Shown: positions 17,691 to 63,965 of the stretch, one piece after another | Layout: each line of letters opens with the position of its first letter | How positions within the stretch are numbered: position 1 is the stretch's first letter | Assembly: GCA_031763025.1 (NCBI GenBank) | Contig: JASSKH010000038.1 | Span: 2,769,001-2,833,000 of the forward strand | DNA: 64,000 bases | Source of the DNA: Macrocystis pyrifera | Lineage: Eukaryota; Sar; Phaeophyceae; Laminariales; Laminariaceae | Direction: 5' to 3' | Notes under the pieces: generated by a model | The model's database searches: none | What the model was told of the DNA's origin: nothing | Seen by the model: only the letters and a program-made list of their open reading frames with translations | Program-made: the position numbers and the translations under genes

Positions 17691-18603
17691 GCGTACACTC
17701 GAAAACACTAAAGAAAAATACAGAAGAAAAACACTACATATAAGCGGAGTGTGTGAACATAATGCACTGAAGTGCTCAAACGATATTACGGGTAAGTCAA
17801 CCGATTTTGACGTTAGTTGACGCGGTTGCCAAACGTACTCAATGCACAAACTAGAGGTTCTCCGAACGGCAAAAAAACAAAACGCTAAAGGCGCGTGAAT
17901 TGGCAACCGCGAGCGTAGGTGTTGAACGTACCACACATCCTTGTTTGCATGGCCCTTGCCCGAGTATCAGATGATCTGCCTGGTCAGAGAGGAAGGCTTG
18001 AAGAAACACTAAGTTGCATTGCACCGAATGCCGAGTAACATGTTGTGGTCATAACCCAGATGACTATATATTTGATCGCAACAATGGCATAATAACAGCG
18101 ACAGTCGAAAGAGAGGCAAGTTGACATAGAACACCTTTTGTATATCACGATGCGTCCGGCAAAACTAATATCATGACTTACCAGTCTCCTTAACCCAATA
18201 TCAGTGGGGTGCCACCAGTGTTTCGCAATATGTTTTCGTGATATACCTAAACTTTGGGACTGATCTTACAGATTCGTTTAATATACAGATACTCGACGTC
18301 AGTCGCACAGGAGGTACATAACAAAGTGTATACCAGGTAGCGCGTGCATATTCAGATGTACGAAGGAACGAGTGCATGCACAATTAGTTAGCTACACCGC
18401 GTGCAGGTGGATATTTGTAAAACCCGAGACGGAGATGGAACGTGACGAGCTTTGGTACAGTCTGCGCAACCTGACAGGACACCTTGCTATTTGTCGCTTC
18501 AACTGTAGTAGTGGTCAACGGTTGAAGAAAGAAATCGAGAGGTGTGATTGATTACCAGTGAACAGTTTCCGTTCTGGGGAGGGGTGTTTGTCACCACGTT
18601 TTT

Positions 18604-18611
18604 ACTACTAT

Positions 18612-18671
<60 letters not shown>

Positions 18672-18718
18672 CACTACTACTACTACCACTACTACTACCA
18701 CTACTACTACCACTACTA

Positions 18719-18766
<48 letters not shown>

Positions 18767-18894
18767 TTACGGGGGTCCATAGTTAACAGGACCAAATTTT
18801 GTTAGTAAAAATAGGTAAATATATAGGTTTTTATGTTTACCTATGGACCCCCGTAATACTACTACTACTAGTCCTACTACTACTACTACTACTA

Positions 18895-18932
<38 letters not shown>

Positions 18933-18940
18933 TTATTACT
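18604..18940 (+). repeat. (TAC)n microsatellite split by a MITE
   Basis: CTA/TAC triplets run from about 18604 to 18764 with some ACC variants, stop at a MITE, and resume at 18859-18940. Long poly-Leu, poly-Tyr and poly-Ser frames here are artefacts of the repeat. Confidence 0.9.
18765..18858. mobile_element. Palindromic MITE, copy 2
   Basis: It begins TATTACGGGGGTCCATAG and ends CTATGGACCCCCGTAATA, a near-perfect terminal inverted repeat. It is inserted in the microsatellite, with TA at each edge, consistent with a TA target. Confidence 0.88.
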
Positions 18941-20384
18941 ACCACCATCAAAACCAGTATGCGAGGGGTACGATTCGAAAACGGTTGAGGATGAACGACG
19001 TTTTAGGACTCATGGTTGATTTTAGCACGAAAGAGCCGCACCAGTGGACAGTATTCAGATGGGGAGATAACGTGAACGTCAATACCTTGACTCACTCAAT
19101 CCGAATCAGATACTAACCTTGGGTAGTGCAAGTAAGTTGAAGCACCGAAATATATTCTACACCTACGGTCCAGGCAGAACAATTTTATAAAGGGGGTACC
19201 GGTTTTTCATCATTTTCGAAAAGTGACACGTGAAGAAAAGTCATCCAGAATCGCGCGGCCAAGAAGAGTCTAAAACCAGTTTTGAAAACTAATCCATGAA
19301 CAACGGCCATTTCTCGAAATTTGTGCGAAAATTTACTCCGATTATCCCGAAATGTTGGAAAAAATAAAATTAAATGATCCGAATCAAAATAAATTTGAGA
19401 GAATGGCTGATTCGTCGAAAATACACATGTATACAGGAGTCGTAAAAAAATATTGTAGTATATAATATATCCACAAGGATACGTCTGTCCATAAACGATA
19501 TTGTATACAACATAAAAGATTCATGAAAAGGCTTTTGTCGGCCCACATAATTTTTGTCGGAAAACCGAACAAAATGGTCCTGGGTCCTGGTCTAATATAT
19601 AGGGATCCGAGGAGTTTTTCGACATCCATCATGCCAGTTTTGCGCTAAAATCCCCACAGCTGGAGCCGGGGAAAAGTTGGTTTTTCGCCTATATCTCGGC
19701 TTAAAAAAGATAAAACAAAATTTGCATCTACAGGAGTTTGACCCTGGACGAACTACATTCAAAACATGTTTAAAACAAAATTATAAATGTGTAGACCTCC
19801 GAAATTTAAACCATTCTTTGTCGGAAAAAAAAACTACTCCGCCGCAACGACGAAAACAAAATCGGACACAATGGTTAGATCTGTCTGAAACAGAGATGTC
19901 CGGATATATATATATATATATATATATGATGTCCTCTGAAAATATGTGACGACATCAAAACAATTCAATATGTGAACGTCGAATTTCTGAAAAAAATGTT
20001 TTGCCTGGACTACAGAAGGAGGCCAAAGTAGAAAGAGCACTCATCATGAACTTGTTACAGCTCGAGGTAAATCCATACAGATTAAATCCACTTGCACATA
20101 TTCGCTAGTGCCAGTAAGTTCAAGCACCCGAAGAATAGGAAACAGAACTTTATACTATACAGTAGGAGACAAAAGCTAAAAGAGGATTCATCATGAACTT
20201 CTTACAGCCCGTGGTACACCCATATTCAAAACCACCACATTCGCAAGGAGTGTCCACCCCCGATGCAGGGAAGTTTGAGATCATAGTCAAAAGGAAAACA
20301 TTCAAAGTATCAAAATGTGATCTCCGCACAAAAAGAGGCTAGAGATATCTCGACAATCTTCAGAGAGGCAGATGGATGCTATCT

Positions 20385-53353: not shown

Positions 53354-56300
53354 CTACAAGTCTGTCTTCAATGCTACGGCAGGTTCACTGGTTATTTTAT
53401 TGCCACCCTCGCGCCCTGCCAAGTCGTCGCCAGGTTTAGTTGCAGTCTCTCCCTCGTCTATCGATTCCGGCGGAACGCTAACGTCTGGAGACGCGTTCGC
53501 GTCTTTCAACACGTCGAAACAAGGTTTAGCTGCCGCCCCTCCCCCGTCTATCGATTTAGGCGGAACGCTAACGTCTGAAGACGCGTTCGAGTTTTTGAAC
53601 ACGTTGTCGCCAGGTTTAGGTGCAGCCTCTCCCCCTTCTGCCGATTCAGGCGGATCGCTAACATCTGGGGACGCGTTCGCGTCTTTTAATTCATCTGGCC
53701 CACTCGACAAGGACTTGGGTTCGGAAGATTCGGGGCCCTTGTGAGGGGAGGCAACCGAGCAGGTATCTCCAATCGGGTCATCGTCCAACACCACCACCTC
53801 GTGGCAGCTTCCAGCGGAACGCGCCGAGTTACTGACTTCGCCATTTTCTCCCAAGCCCTTCCCGCAGACACCGCTATCCGAAGCGTCCCCATCATCGCCA
53901 CTTAGCAAATCGATTACTTCTTCCACGGGAGATACCTTGGGTACCATGGTACTACCCGCAGCTGAAGTTCCAATAGCTCCCGAGGAAGTATTTCGCAACG
54001 TCAGTTGCTTAGCCTCCGCCGATGCTTGAGCTGCCGCGATTGCCGCTTCTAGCCCTAACGGTTCCGCAGCATCGCCTCCTGCGTCCCAGCTCCCAGCATA
54101 CCGTGTTTGGTTTGGGAACATCGGTACGTGCGTGCCTGAAAAGGCTCTTGCCCGTGCCGAACCATATTCCTGAGATTCGAACGCGGGTGCCGTGTCAACT
54201 ATAGCGTTTAAATTACTGTCTTGACAGAGCAACGGAAATCGTAACCTACCGGTACGTGACCGCGATGAAATTCCCAAATGTGCTTGTATGAAATAGAATC
54301 TCTATCTCAGAGGACGGAACGTGCTATGATCATGACGCTTTGTAAACAAACTACGCAATCAACTGTACCATGAAGACGTGCGTGTACAGTAGAGAGCACG
54401 TTCGTGATTCACCTGCGGATTGGAGTCCGCCTCAACATCAACATCATGCTCCTCGTCAGAATCGACAATGTCGTAAACATCATCTGCGGCTTCCCGCCCG
54501 CCTCCCCCGTCGCTATAGCCGCTGCTGTAGCCGCCACTGCGGCGTGTGCACGAATCCCCGAGAAAAGAGCGCGTAAAACGTCCCGTGGTCACAGATGCAG
54601 CGTTACCAATAACTCAAGTCCAGAACATCACGCTCACTCAGGGTTACACCGTAGACTCCTTCTCCGTTCTTTCCCAGTCCCTACACTGTTTAGTCGCATT
54701 GTATTCAACACTCAGTCTAAGCGCTCTTCGGCTTGAATTAATTTGCTACTCACCTTGGGTGCTTTTCGGGGGTGTCTTACATCAAAGCTGGTCGCAGTCT
54801 CGAGAGAGACGCGACATATACATTCATCGATTTGCCCTTACTTGATCTTCATTCAAGGGACTATGGCTGCCTCTAGAGCACCAAAGCGATGCGAACCTCC
54901 CCCGCCGAGAATCAAGGGCAAAGGAACGGAAGCTGGGAACGTTGCTCGTATACCGGTGTCTCGCTGAATCTGATATACCAGATCATCGTTAATGAACTAC
55001 CTAGTAGTTAATAAGAGAGCTGTACAACTGAGCATATAAACTTGACGCTAGTAAACAACGACACGAAGTGATTCTGCCTGGCTATGGGCTATTGGACGTT
55101 TTTGGTGTTGTCCAATAATGCGTGCTATCCGATTACTACTTTGGTATTCGGGTGGTGGCATGCGGATAAGCACCTTTCGTTTCCACCTCTTGAGCCACCT
55201 TCCACATCTTCTTCCTGCTCTTCGAAAAATTCACGGCGACCCTCGTCGTCAAGCTCGTGACGCATGTCTTCAACAGCAAGTTCCTGAAGCGTGTAGCATG
55301 CATGCAGCAACATCAAACACACATACTATAAACTAAAATCGCAGGATCAAGCACGTCAACCACAAAACAGGCACCACCGTGCGTCTCTGATGGGATTTTT
55401 GTTTGGTGTGACCATTTATTCTGACGTCAAACATATATTTTTCTAACGTAAATGCCAATGTGAGGAAATCTCCAAAATGAGCATACAAGACAGTAGATCA
55501 AACTGCAACTTCCAGATAACGATACCCGATACCTGCGGTACCTCAACAACTTGCAGGCGGGGCTGAACATTTGAAAATAACGACAGTATTGCTCACAAAC
55601 CTGTGCATTCTCGGCAACCGAAGCTTGGAGCCGTCGAAAGGCAGCTCTCTCATCTTCCGCAGAAGAATTCCGTTCGCTGGTGTCGCCAGGAGGTGCCTTT
55701 TCGGTAGGCTTGGCCGTGGAATTCCGCCCACTGATGTCGCCAGGAGGCGGTCTTTCCGTAGGTTTGTCCACCTTGTTTGCGTTCACTGTTGAGGCTCCAG
55801 TGGGGGTGGCGGTCGAAGGACTTCGGGTGCCGTTGGAATGAGGCGTTTCCACCTGAGAAGGCGCCCAAGAAAATGCCGTACGCAGCACCATGGTTTCGTT
55901 GAAAAGTGGGTACCCCCTCGTAACCGACCTACTATAAAGCGGACTATACTATTGTAATACCAAAAGATCATGAAAACATCGTGTAATATGCATGACTACT
56001 GTCTCAGCACCGCACACCATCGCGCGGTAGTCATCATCGAACAGGTGCGACTCTTAGTGGTGAAAATGACTATTATTCCGCCGCAGTATCATGTCTTATT
56101 TTTCCGTAACGACCGGACAACCGGACAACCAAAAATATACTGGTACCAGGTACCTGGTATATATATATTCCCTGAAATAGTATTAAACAGAATATCTTGA
56201 TTAAAACACTACATAAAGGCTAAATTTTGATAGACGATTTCTCGGGATGTAGTTGGAGCTTGCTCTTGATATTTTGGGGGCACGATCGTCTTGTTGCCGT

Positions 56301-59054
56301 GGGCGCAGGTACTTCAGAAGATTTTAAAATATTCAAAATTGAAAGAGAAAATATCGAAAAGGCCGTATGTTGTTTACGTCTTCTCGCGCAGTCATGGCTG
56401 TCTCGTTGAGTTCAAGACACTGTAATGGGATTGATTTCATGCTCTGGGTTGTAGGCTCTCTGTCACATTAAACCGCATACGAATCCACATTGATGCAGAG
56501 GAGTAATCTGCTCCCAGAAATTTCCACTTTGGCTGATGGATGGGTACCAGGTATGTTTGATGCTGTTTCCAAGAAGAAACAACACCCACCACTGTAACAT
56601 AAACTATCCCTAATCAATAGTCACCTTTGTACAAGCAAGTTTTCACTATGCTAGGTCCCCCCAGCGTTTCAAGTTTACTATTCCCCAACAGTGCTAACTG
56701 TGTGGCGTGTGCGCAGTCATCGCTATTCGAGCCGGAATTCCGCGAGGCGAGCGGACTTGCAATGCCTCGCTTATTGTGGGATGTGGGTTGTCGTAGACGG
56801 TGAGTGCATACTCAGGAGCTATTGTTCAAGGTACAAGCAGCATCACCAGCAGAGAGTACAGACAGCTCGAACGAAGTCGTTTCAAGGTCACTCCCGCTAC
56901 GTATGTACGAGTGAGTAGCAAGGGAGCTAAGCTTTGAGTCAGTCGTTCATGACGATGATTCTTCCTTGCTAAAGGTCAAAAAGTTCATTTTTTGCATTCA
57001 ACTTTTGGTGACATAAAGATCGCCGGCAACGGCAAGAATACGCATTCATTTTCACCCATAGCCGTGTACTGCATACAGACCCAAACGTCACGTCAATGAC
57101 AAACCGACGACGCATGCACGATATTTCATCTGTCGATGCATCCATCACGTTTGTATCAATACGTTCGACCCCTTGGCGTGCGTATGTCCGAGAGACGCTA
57201 CCGAGACACGACCACCCTACTCGTACTAAAAATCGAACTGTGCACTCAATGTCCAGCAGCCAAAAAGCTGGCGCTATCTCGCTCATGCGACCCATGGCAG
57301 CAACAGTACAGTGACATTTTTCGTACTTATTTGGTCAGCACTCGGAAACAAGCGGTTATGTACCCACATGTACCCACGCCTTAATATACATAGCGCTTCT
57401 ACAAGGTTCGATGTGCTTGATATCGACCTGCTCACCTCCATCTGGTTAGTCTCTTGCTCGCCCTCTACCATTTCCCCTAGCAGCTTCATCTGAGCCAGAG
57501 AAACGAGAAAGTGCACCGTAGAAAAGAGGAGTGAGGCATCGCAAAGGCTACCATGCTGCTAGACTAGGCTGGTATGCTGCTGTGCATAGGGCTTTTGAGG
57601 GATGTTGATGGTAATATTGCACGTCGATGTGGATGACTGGGTTGACGTGACTCCATTGTGAAAAACACAGTTTCATCACTGGTCGACACGGAATGGATAC
57701 CCTGTGCAATGCACCGGGTGCAATATTTTCAGGTAACGATGCCGATTATCGTGAGAACACATAATTTCCTCGGACAAGGAGAGAAAACGTGTAACACGAG
57801 AACATAAATACTTCGATCAGTCTCTTGTGAAGCCACAGCTACTAGAGTGTGCGGGTGAAACACATGCTCTTCGTGACGCCTTTTATTCGGATAGACACAG
57901 ATGTGCGATGAGCGTGTCCCTCACCTTTTGCTGTATAAGAGGCCACAAGGCATCATCCAAGCTCCCTTTTGCCACTAGATATTGCACTTTGACAACCGTG
58001 GACTGCCCAATACGGTGACATCGATCTTCCGCCTGCAACAGCTGAGCAGGCGTCCAGTAGAGCTCAGCAAACACGACTCTGTTGGAAGTCAATATGTGAA
58101 CGGAGGAGAAACAAGCCACTTTGTGGATTAAACAACGCATCCAGTAGAGCTTAGCAAACACGACTCTGTTGGAAGTCGATATGTGAACGGAGGAGAAACA
58201 AGCCACTTTGTGGATTAAACAACGCATCCAGTAGAGCTCAGCAAACACGACTCTGTTGGAAGTCAATACGTGAACAGAGGAGAAACAAGCCACTTTGTGG
58301 ATTAAACAACGTATCCAGTAGAGCTCAGCAAACACGTCTCTGTTGGAACTTGATATGTGAACGGAGGAGAAACAAGCCACTTTGTGAATTGAATAACAAC
58401 GTATCCTCCCTTTGGCAGTATTATATCAAATGAAGGGACGGATAGCATGAAAAAACGGGCTCGCAGCAGTCGCGCTTGGAGTATTAGCCACCATGACTAC
58501 AGGGCAAGAGCAATCAACGCGCTGTTTTCGGCAATTTAGATAGTATACTAGACTACATCACAATCATAACCCTCGTCAGCATCAGCATCAGCATTCACCT
58601 ATTGTGCGGGGTACCAGTACTCATGTGACAATCCTCGTCTATTTCACGGCTTGCAGTCGTACTTCCAAGTAAACCAACAAAACAGCGGAGGGCTGGTCAG
58701 AGAATGTAATGGATATCGTACCACCCCGATTGCCTATGGCCGTCAGTGCTATCTTGCTGTAGTTCGATCGTCTAAAGCCGGGATGACACACACCAGGCAT
58801 CATGAGACGCGAACCCAAGCCAATACCGCACCAGTCATGCGAATGTGGTATTGAACTCTGTGAAGTGCTACCTACGAATACATGCGTAATGAGTTAGAGT
58901 GCGAATAGGTGGACAGTAACAACAGTGACAACAGTGCACACCTGCTGGCGGCTGTGAGCGTGATGCCAATCCCGGCTGCTGTGAGCCCCAGGAGGGCCAC
59001 CCTCACGCTGGGATTGCTCTGGAACTTGTCTACCAGATCCTGCCTATCCTTTGG
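53354..59054 (-). CDS. SNF2-family annealing-helicase-like gene (SMARCAL1/ZRANB3 type), 3' portion, seven exons
   Basis: This is the C-terminal half of an ATP-dependent DNA translocase gene. By family knowledge such proteins anneal or remodel DNA at stalled forks in the nucleus. The exons, minus strand, are 59054-58942, 58078-57925, 57489-57436, 55852-55601, 55283-55199, 54612-54413 and 54169-53354. They are joined by GT-AG introns and the phases agree throughout: 1674 bp, 557 residues, stop TAG at 53356-53354. The first exon reads [12 protein letters not shown] and then [17 protein letters not shown] (helicase motif V). The second reads [23 protein letters not shown] (motif VI) and [18 protein letters not shown], as in SMARCAL1. 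The third, MKLLGE..., matches the helix after the helicase core. The remaining exons form a low-complexity, acidic tail with VIDLLSGDD and VVVLDDD, which resemble SUMO-interaction motifs. The intron before 54612 has a weak acceptor and two possible donors (55199 or about 15 bases further), both in phase. The ATPase motifs I-IV and the start codon are absent from the readable sequence, so the gene probably continues past 64000. Use of a donor-like GTAGGT overlapping the stop at 53357 is an alternative end. I am sure of the family, and less sure that the tail exons belong to the same transcript, although their phases agree. Confidence 0.88.
53429..53698 (-). repeat. 90 bp tandem repeat x3 inside the last exon of the helicase gene
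   Basis: Three units of exactly 30 codons (anchors at 53457, 53547 and 53637) encode variants of [20 protein letters not shown] followed by an alanine- and lysine-containing end. They lie downstream of the two SUMO-interaction-like motifs, close to the C-terminus. The frame is kept in all three. The units are Ser/Pro/acidic and probably disordered. Confidence 0.85.
55673..55780 (-). repeat. 54 bp tandem duplication inside a coding exon of the helicase gene
   Basis: Two adjacent units of 18 codons, offset by exactly 54 bp (for example 55681 and 55735), encode [17 protein letters not shown] and then [17 protein letters not shown]. They lie in the 55852-55601 exon, in frame, and form a proline-rich linker after the helicase core. 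The boundaries are approximate. Confidence 0.82.
58054..58401 (-). repeat. 87 bp tandem repeat x4 that duplicates a splice acceptor in the helicase gene
   Basis: Four head-to-tail units start at 58054, 58141, 58228 and 58315, exactly 87 bp apart. Read on the minus strand, each unit holds about 60 bases of 3' intron sequence ending CAACAG, then the first 26 bases of the motif VI exon (RVVFAELYW). Acceptors therefore lie before 58339, 58252, 58165 and 58078. Only the last runs on into [13 protein letters not shown]. Because 87 is 29 codons and no unit has a stop, use of an upstream acceptor would insert 29, 58 or 87 residues between motifs V and VI without changing frame. Small differences (RDVFAELYW in the farthest unit, VFAKLYW in another) point to relaxed constraint on the distal copies. 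Confidence 0.9.
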
Positions 59055-63554: not shown

Positions 63555-63776
63555 GTCTGAGCCAACTCTTACTCTTGTATTCATCGCCACCCTTGCACAA
63601 CAAGACAGCACTACAACAGTAGCAGGCACCTGGTCTGGTGTATAGACGTGTCCCCAACTCGGTATGGGCGTCTGAGCCAACTCTTGTATTCATCGCCACC
63701 CTTGCACAACAAGACGGCACTCCAGCAGTAGCAGGCACCTGGTCTGGTGTATAGACGTCTCCCGAACTCGGTATGG
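63555..63776 (+). repeat. Tandem duplication, 115 bp unit
   Basis: Units begin at 63555 and 63670 with GTCTGAGCCAACTCTTG and are nearly identical through CACCTGGTCTGGTGTATAGA to CGGTATGGG, which suggests a recent event. Confidence 0.88.
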
Positions 63777-63965
63777 GATATGGGATATGTTGGTTGTATT
63801 GGTTGTACGGTATATGGGAATATGGGATATGGGATATGTTGGTGGTATGGTATATGGGAATACGGGAAAACCACCGTATGTGATATGGTATGTGTTGACG
63901 GTATGGAACGGGAAAAACACAGTATATGGTATGGTACGTTTGCGGTATGGTACCATATGGTACGA
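63770..63965 (+). repeat. GGGATAT/GGTATGG simple repeat
   Basis: A degenerate array of TATGGGATATG and GGTATATGGGAATA units; the frames it opens on both strands are composition artefacts. Confidence 0.78.

Follow-up and report, generated by a model that had tools for sequence, protein, structure and literature searches.

Mirages are minisatellite-like tandem copies of an intron/exon boundary, described in amphioxus in the globin genes BflGb6 and BflGb9 and in Adh3, with similar arrays in TnC and PGBD5, and normal splicing is suggested to be undisturbed by them (PMC3087553, PMC3902484). In BflGb6, the repeated segment joins the 3' end of one intron to the 5' portion of the exon after it, and its units are 81-100% alike; the edges of a mirage cluster are excluded from homogenisation, splice signals are retained in many units, and the possibilities raised include cryptic use of the copies as well as intron gain by this route (PMC3087553). 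The paper on PGBD5, where splice sites are covered by repeats of 60 and 108 bp, describes these as imperfect and the mirages known before them as perfect, and states that those of Adh and TnC generate no aberrant mRNAs (PMC3902484). Other described cases are intron gain through tandem duplication of proto-splice sites in Drosophila (PMC2891723, which also names NAGNAG tandem acceptors) and human paralogs in which expanded minisatellites change gene structure (PMC2812944).

In this work, we analyse an array of four repeat units at a splice acceptor within 64,000 nucleotides of brown algal DNA (the window), which we consider probably to be a mirage. As in amphioxus, the copies lie head to tail across a real intron/exon boundary, set here by homology and not by RNA, and the unit has a minisatellite-like size, with four units of 87 bp compared to 150-160 bp in BflGb6, 157 bp in BflGb9, 10-72 bp in Adh3, and 60 and 108 bp in PGBD5. 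Unlike in amphioxus, the host is a brown alga and not a lancelet, and all units here are in frame and stop-free. Whereas the amphioxus mirages are known with RT-PCR and haplotype data, this array comes from the sequence of one assembly.

Alternative acceptors can also stand in tandem, as in the NAGNAG type. There, as here, several acceptors serve one donor and the frame is kept, but the 3-nt spacing of NAGNAG contrasts with a spacing of 87 nt and a whole copied intron tail at this locus, where the acceptors are candidates. Introns have reportedly also come from tandem arrays, in the work of Zhuo et al. in 2007. As in the Drosophila (PMC2891723) and human-paralog (PMC2812944) cases, tandem duplication puts extra splice signals inside a gene; the duplicated or activated site gives rise to a new intron in those cases, whereas at this locus the copies are of an acceptor that already existed, and no new donor is seen. 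Among the papers listed by searches of the openly licensed literature, none presents a mirage-type array in a brown alga, judged by title or start of abstract.

The array lies in a putative SMARCAL1-like helicase gene

Judged by homology, the host gene is a SMARCAL1-like SNF2 helicase on the minus strand, with its best matches in brown algae. Around the array, the gene has the following features.

58942..59054, minus strand: upstream coding exon, its translated part followed by AG, carrying helicase motif V (exon model, homologue alignment and PDB chain match)
58941-58940, minus strand: donor GT after the upstream exon
57925..58078, minus strand: genuine downstream exon, carrying motif VI and reading to ...WPLIQQK, with donor GTGAGG next (exon model and homologue alignment)

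Motif V lies at the end of exon 59054-58942, and motif VI lies in exon 58078-57925. Joined, these exons match SNF2-type helicases of solved structures and Pfam Helicase_C, and SNF2-rel_dom and Helicase_C are present in homologues P0001-P0003. Motifs I and II are read in upstream exons, beyond the window's end. Apart from one seam described below, the exons as read are bounded by GT/AG, and their helicase motifs are conserved. A 433-residue protein pieced together from the gene has its top matches in Discosporangium, Ectocarpus, Phaeothamnion and Hapterophycus, at 70-85% identity over 39-61% of the query; the first two and the last are brown algae and Phaeothamnion is a near relative. Ranked below these algal matches are many proteins named SMARCA-like helicases, with names that are often clipped in the table.

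The HARP domain is the mark of SMARCAL1. Its match here is weak and falls on a hand-joined piece (E 0.0061 and 16.5 bits, with the cut-off at 25); in the Ectocarpus homologue P0002 it reaches 17.6 bits, also under the cut-off of 25, and no HARP domain is listed for P0001 and P0003. The gene model has one seam, from 69021 to 66301, that is out of frame and leaves the array untouched; we take it for a missed exon or boundary, or for a place where the gene is broken.

Downstream of the array, the next helicase exon is readable on the minus strand at 57400-57560, where it matches P0002. A minus-strand open frame at 55427-55948, which holds a two-fold protein repeat, resembles the end of P0002, itself a partial homologue, and the helicase gene therefore probably extends to about 55.6 kb.

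Four near-identical units repeat an intron/exon boundary

Run on the window, Tandem Repeats Finder places the array at 58053-58397, with a period of 87, 4.0 copies, 93% matches and 0% indels. We read it as four units.

58314..58400, minus strand: most upstream unit, with a tail ending in CAACAG, acceptor 58339 and 26 exon bases reading RDVFAELYW; the most diverged
58227..58313, minus strand: second unit, acceptor 58252, RVVFAELYW
58140..58226, minus strand: third unit, acceptor 58165, RVVFAKLYW
58053..58139, minus strand: fourth unit, acceptor 58078, RVVFAELYW, running straight into the genuine exon

On the minus strand, every unit carries an intron tail ending in CAACAG plus the first 26 bases of the exon coding helicase motif VI, as the original prediction had it. 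That prediction also held the four units to be exact; their number and length of 87 bp stand, but exactness is ruled out by pairwise differences of 2, 3, 5, 10, 10 and 12 between the 87-bp blocks. Within the 78 bases around each acceptor, where pairs differ at 2-8 positions, comparisons of the most upstream unit with the other three give 6-8 differences, and those among the inner three give 2-4. Although there are only four units, this is similar to the amphioxus pattern of an edge unit outside homogenisation; the edge unit on the exon side is not diverged. The most upstream unit also has another intron tail, by eye about 3 bases longer (ATTCAATTC versus TAATCC).

The array cannot be chance sequence. 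Tandem arrays can be assembled wrongly, and one amphioxus mirage is apparently assembled aberrantly in the genome draft (PMC3087553). Here, however, any two units show 2-12 differences over their 87 positions, unlike a false copy, and we rejected a false duplication on this ground; the number of units could still be wrong, but an assembly artefact is extremely unlikely. A search with the 348-base array against the 537-Mb assembly, which scores best candidates only, returned one match, the window itself, which belongs to a 3.68-Mb contig.

Arrays with a period of 30 or more cover 3,709 of the 163,800 bases (2.3%) in a genome sample made up of the window, two flanking pieces (with a 100-base overlap) and eight other genome pieces. 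Thus, some splice sites should by expectation be overlain by an array, and such a case is not rare a priori.

The likely break points of the first duplication can be read from the junctions. The intron just before the array has GGGAGGATACGTTG and the genuine exon CTACTGGACGCC, whereas the copied junctions have CTACTGGATACG or CTACTGGATGCG, and therefore one trinucleotide is common to both break points.

58404..58406, minus strand: intronic GGA immediately preceding the array, matching the GGA at 58055-58053 that ends the duplicated exon piece

This GGA is likely to have been the microhomology of the first tandem duplication.

Candidate acceptors and the reading frame

All four acceptors, at 58339, 58252, 58165 and 58078, are intact, and no stop is met between any of them and position 57925 when the sequence is read in the frame that the donor at 58942 imposes. 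The donor and acceptor coordinates, the intactness of the acceptors and the absence of stops in the units thus agree with what had been predicted from the letters. Splicing from 58942 to the four acceptors would remove introns of 602, 689, 776 and 863 bases, and use of the upstream three would potentially add 29, 58 or 87 residues before the strand VVFAELYW. By homology, the junction falls after helicase motif V and before motif VI, in accordance with the predicted site.

An open, in-frame unit is not in itself improbable. Among 63-base windows on both strands of the window, 56,515 of 127,874 (44%) are open in a given frame, which, multiplied by the one in three chance of a length divisible by three, gives about 15% beforehand for a single such duplication to be in frame with an open tail. 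Copies that arise later inherit this property. At about 15%, selection for an open frame is not needed as an explanation, and we rejected it as such. We also considered the units as small cassette exons and rejected this, as the three upstream units contain no GTAAG, GTGAG or GTATG donor.

These numbers bear on the possibility that the units work as alternative acceptors, giving isoforms with 29, 58 or 87 additional residues between motifs V and VI and a unit number that varies among individuals. In a used array, the acceptors would be intact, in frame and free of stops, as all four are here, and with the VFAELYW strand duplicated, the fold might accommodate the insert as a loop. Amphioxus offers parallels in a gene with 6- and 3-unit haplotypes, and splice signals in repeats are said to be able to serve alternative transcripts (PMC3087553). 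The prior chance of about 15% weighs against this reading, as do the homologues and the codon changes described below, and we regard working acceptors as unlikely. In the stronger form of the idea, a helicase of the fork-repair (SMARCAL1) type would carry equivalent in-frame acceptors in variable copy number that set the length of a loop in its motor domain, with 29-residue steps between motifs V and VI distinguishing individuals or tissues; this is quite improbable. The array had also been put forward as a simple route to creating alternative acceptors, which is a fair idea; cryptic use of such repeats was already raised in the globin paper (PMC3087553).

Whichever product is made depends on the choice among acceptors that are near identical in tail and AG, and nothing in their sequences gives a reason for 58078 to win over the other three. 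In test-tube work with duplicated 3' splice sites, the one nearest the donor tends to be favoured; a search of the openly licensed literature listed no paper on competition between duplicated acceptors. This preference and the near identity of the acceptors, with no reason to skip the first, would be consistent with an upstream acceptor that usually wins, leaving the enzyme damaged or altered in this strain through a mildly harmful or null allele, and the out-of-frame seam between 69021 and 66301, which we take for a missed exon or boundary, could be read the same way. Against it, the other exons keep GT/AG ends and conserved helicase motifs, and the published mirages are said to splice normally (PMC3087553, PMC3902484), which makes such an allele very unlikely.

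Homologues lack the insert

An insert at the junction was found in none of the 119 homologues that span the site, taken from the best 120 of 5,793; many of these 120 are gene predictions and not sequenced mRNAs, and close kin may be missing. The 119 comprise 99 recognized by a fixed-spacing pattern, 14 read by eye and 6 more read by eye that are without the pattern's motif VI, with P0004 dropped as it ends before the site. Discosporangium and Ectocarpus are among the insert-free homologues. At the level of aligned proteins, this shows that the product conserved among homologues corresponds to the acceptor-58078 form, which speaks for the homologues and not for this species' own transcripts. 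When 78 of the 87 residues of the insert peptide were searched against public proteins, none of the 49 candidates reached E ≤ 0.001.

The three units that are readable as insert have six variable codons, one with a synonymous change and five with non-synonymous ones (V/D, E/K, I/M, V/I and L/S), of which the V-to-D and E-to-K replacements fall within the copied strand. For comparison, all single changes of the unit consensus comprise 193 non-synonymous, 56 synonymous and 12 stops. Read in this way, the codons give no sign of constraint at the protein level, and six are too few to exclude it.

The absence of the insert from all site-spanning homologues, the lack of a match for its peptide and the predominance of non-synonymous changes all count against working acceptors. 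Of the predicted isoforms with 0, 29, 58 or 87 extra residues, the frame arithmetic is correct, whereas their production is left unsupported by these three results.

A probable mirage in a brown alga

Based on the anatomy of the array, the 119 insert-free homologues, the edge pattern, the amphioxus precedent and the abundance of arrays in this genome, we consider it probable that the array is a mirage-type, minisatellite-like expansion that spans the 3' end of one intron and the first bases of the exon after it, and that it is silent, with 58078 as the main acceptor. A first tandem duplication, probably between the GGA at 58406-58404 in the intron and that at 58055-58053 in the exon, would have left an additional copy of the region around the acceptor within the intron. 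Further units may then have arisen through slippage or unequal exchange, which would also have kept the inner units similar to one another as the outermost diverged. In the main mRNA, 58942 is most likely joined to 58078, and the encoded enzyme would lack the insert; the upstream units would leave with the intron, perhaps with a low level of longer in-frame products. The choice of 58078 may depend on the downstream exon through exon definition, as 58078 alone adjoins it directly, or the choice may be leaky.

Such a mirage would take the known range of these arrays beyond lancelets to a brown alga, and genomes rich in minisatellites may therefore generally produce them as a by-product. A natural intron with four near-identical in-frame acceptors also provides a clean natural experiment on spliceosome choice between equal sites and, if longer forms are made, protein length would vary step-wise by repeat number.

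Neighbouring repeats

Several other repeats were observed in the window. Three more tandem arrays, with periods of 109, 40 and 46, lie at 63571-63950 in the long intron of the helicase gene (65633 to 59054). Between 59776 and 63400, in the same long intron, the repeat GGTGGATGCATGCTCTAGGGGGCAAGAGCTTGC is seen twice, and the peptide that it encodes, MHALGGKSL, is found again at places as far as about 63.4 kb; these repeats are probably mobile-element debris. Two long TAC trinucleotide arrays, of 56 and 29 copies, stand close together at 18603-18942. A 90-bp tandem repeat of 2.8 copies at 53432-53686, corresponding to protein repeats of about 30 residues, sits inside a 315-residue minus-strand open reading frame (53354-54301), and thus coding minisatellites may occur nearby too.
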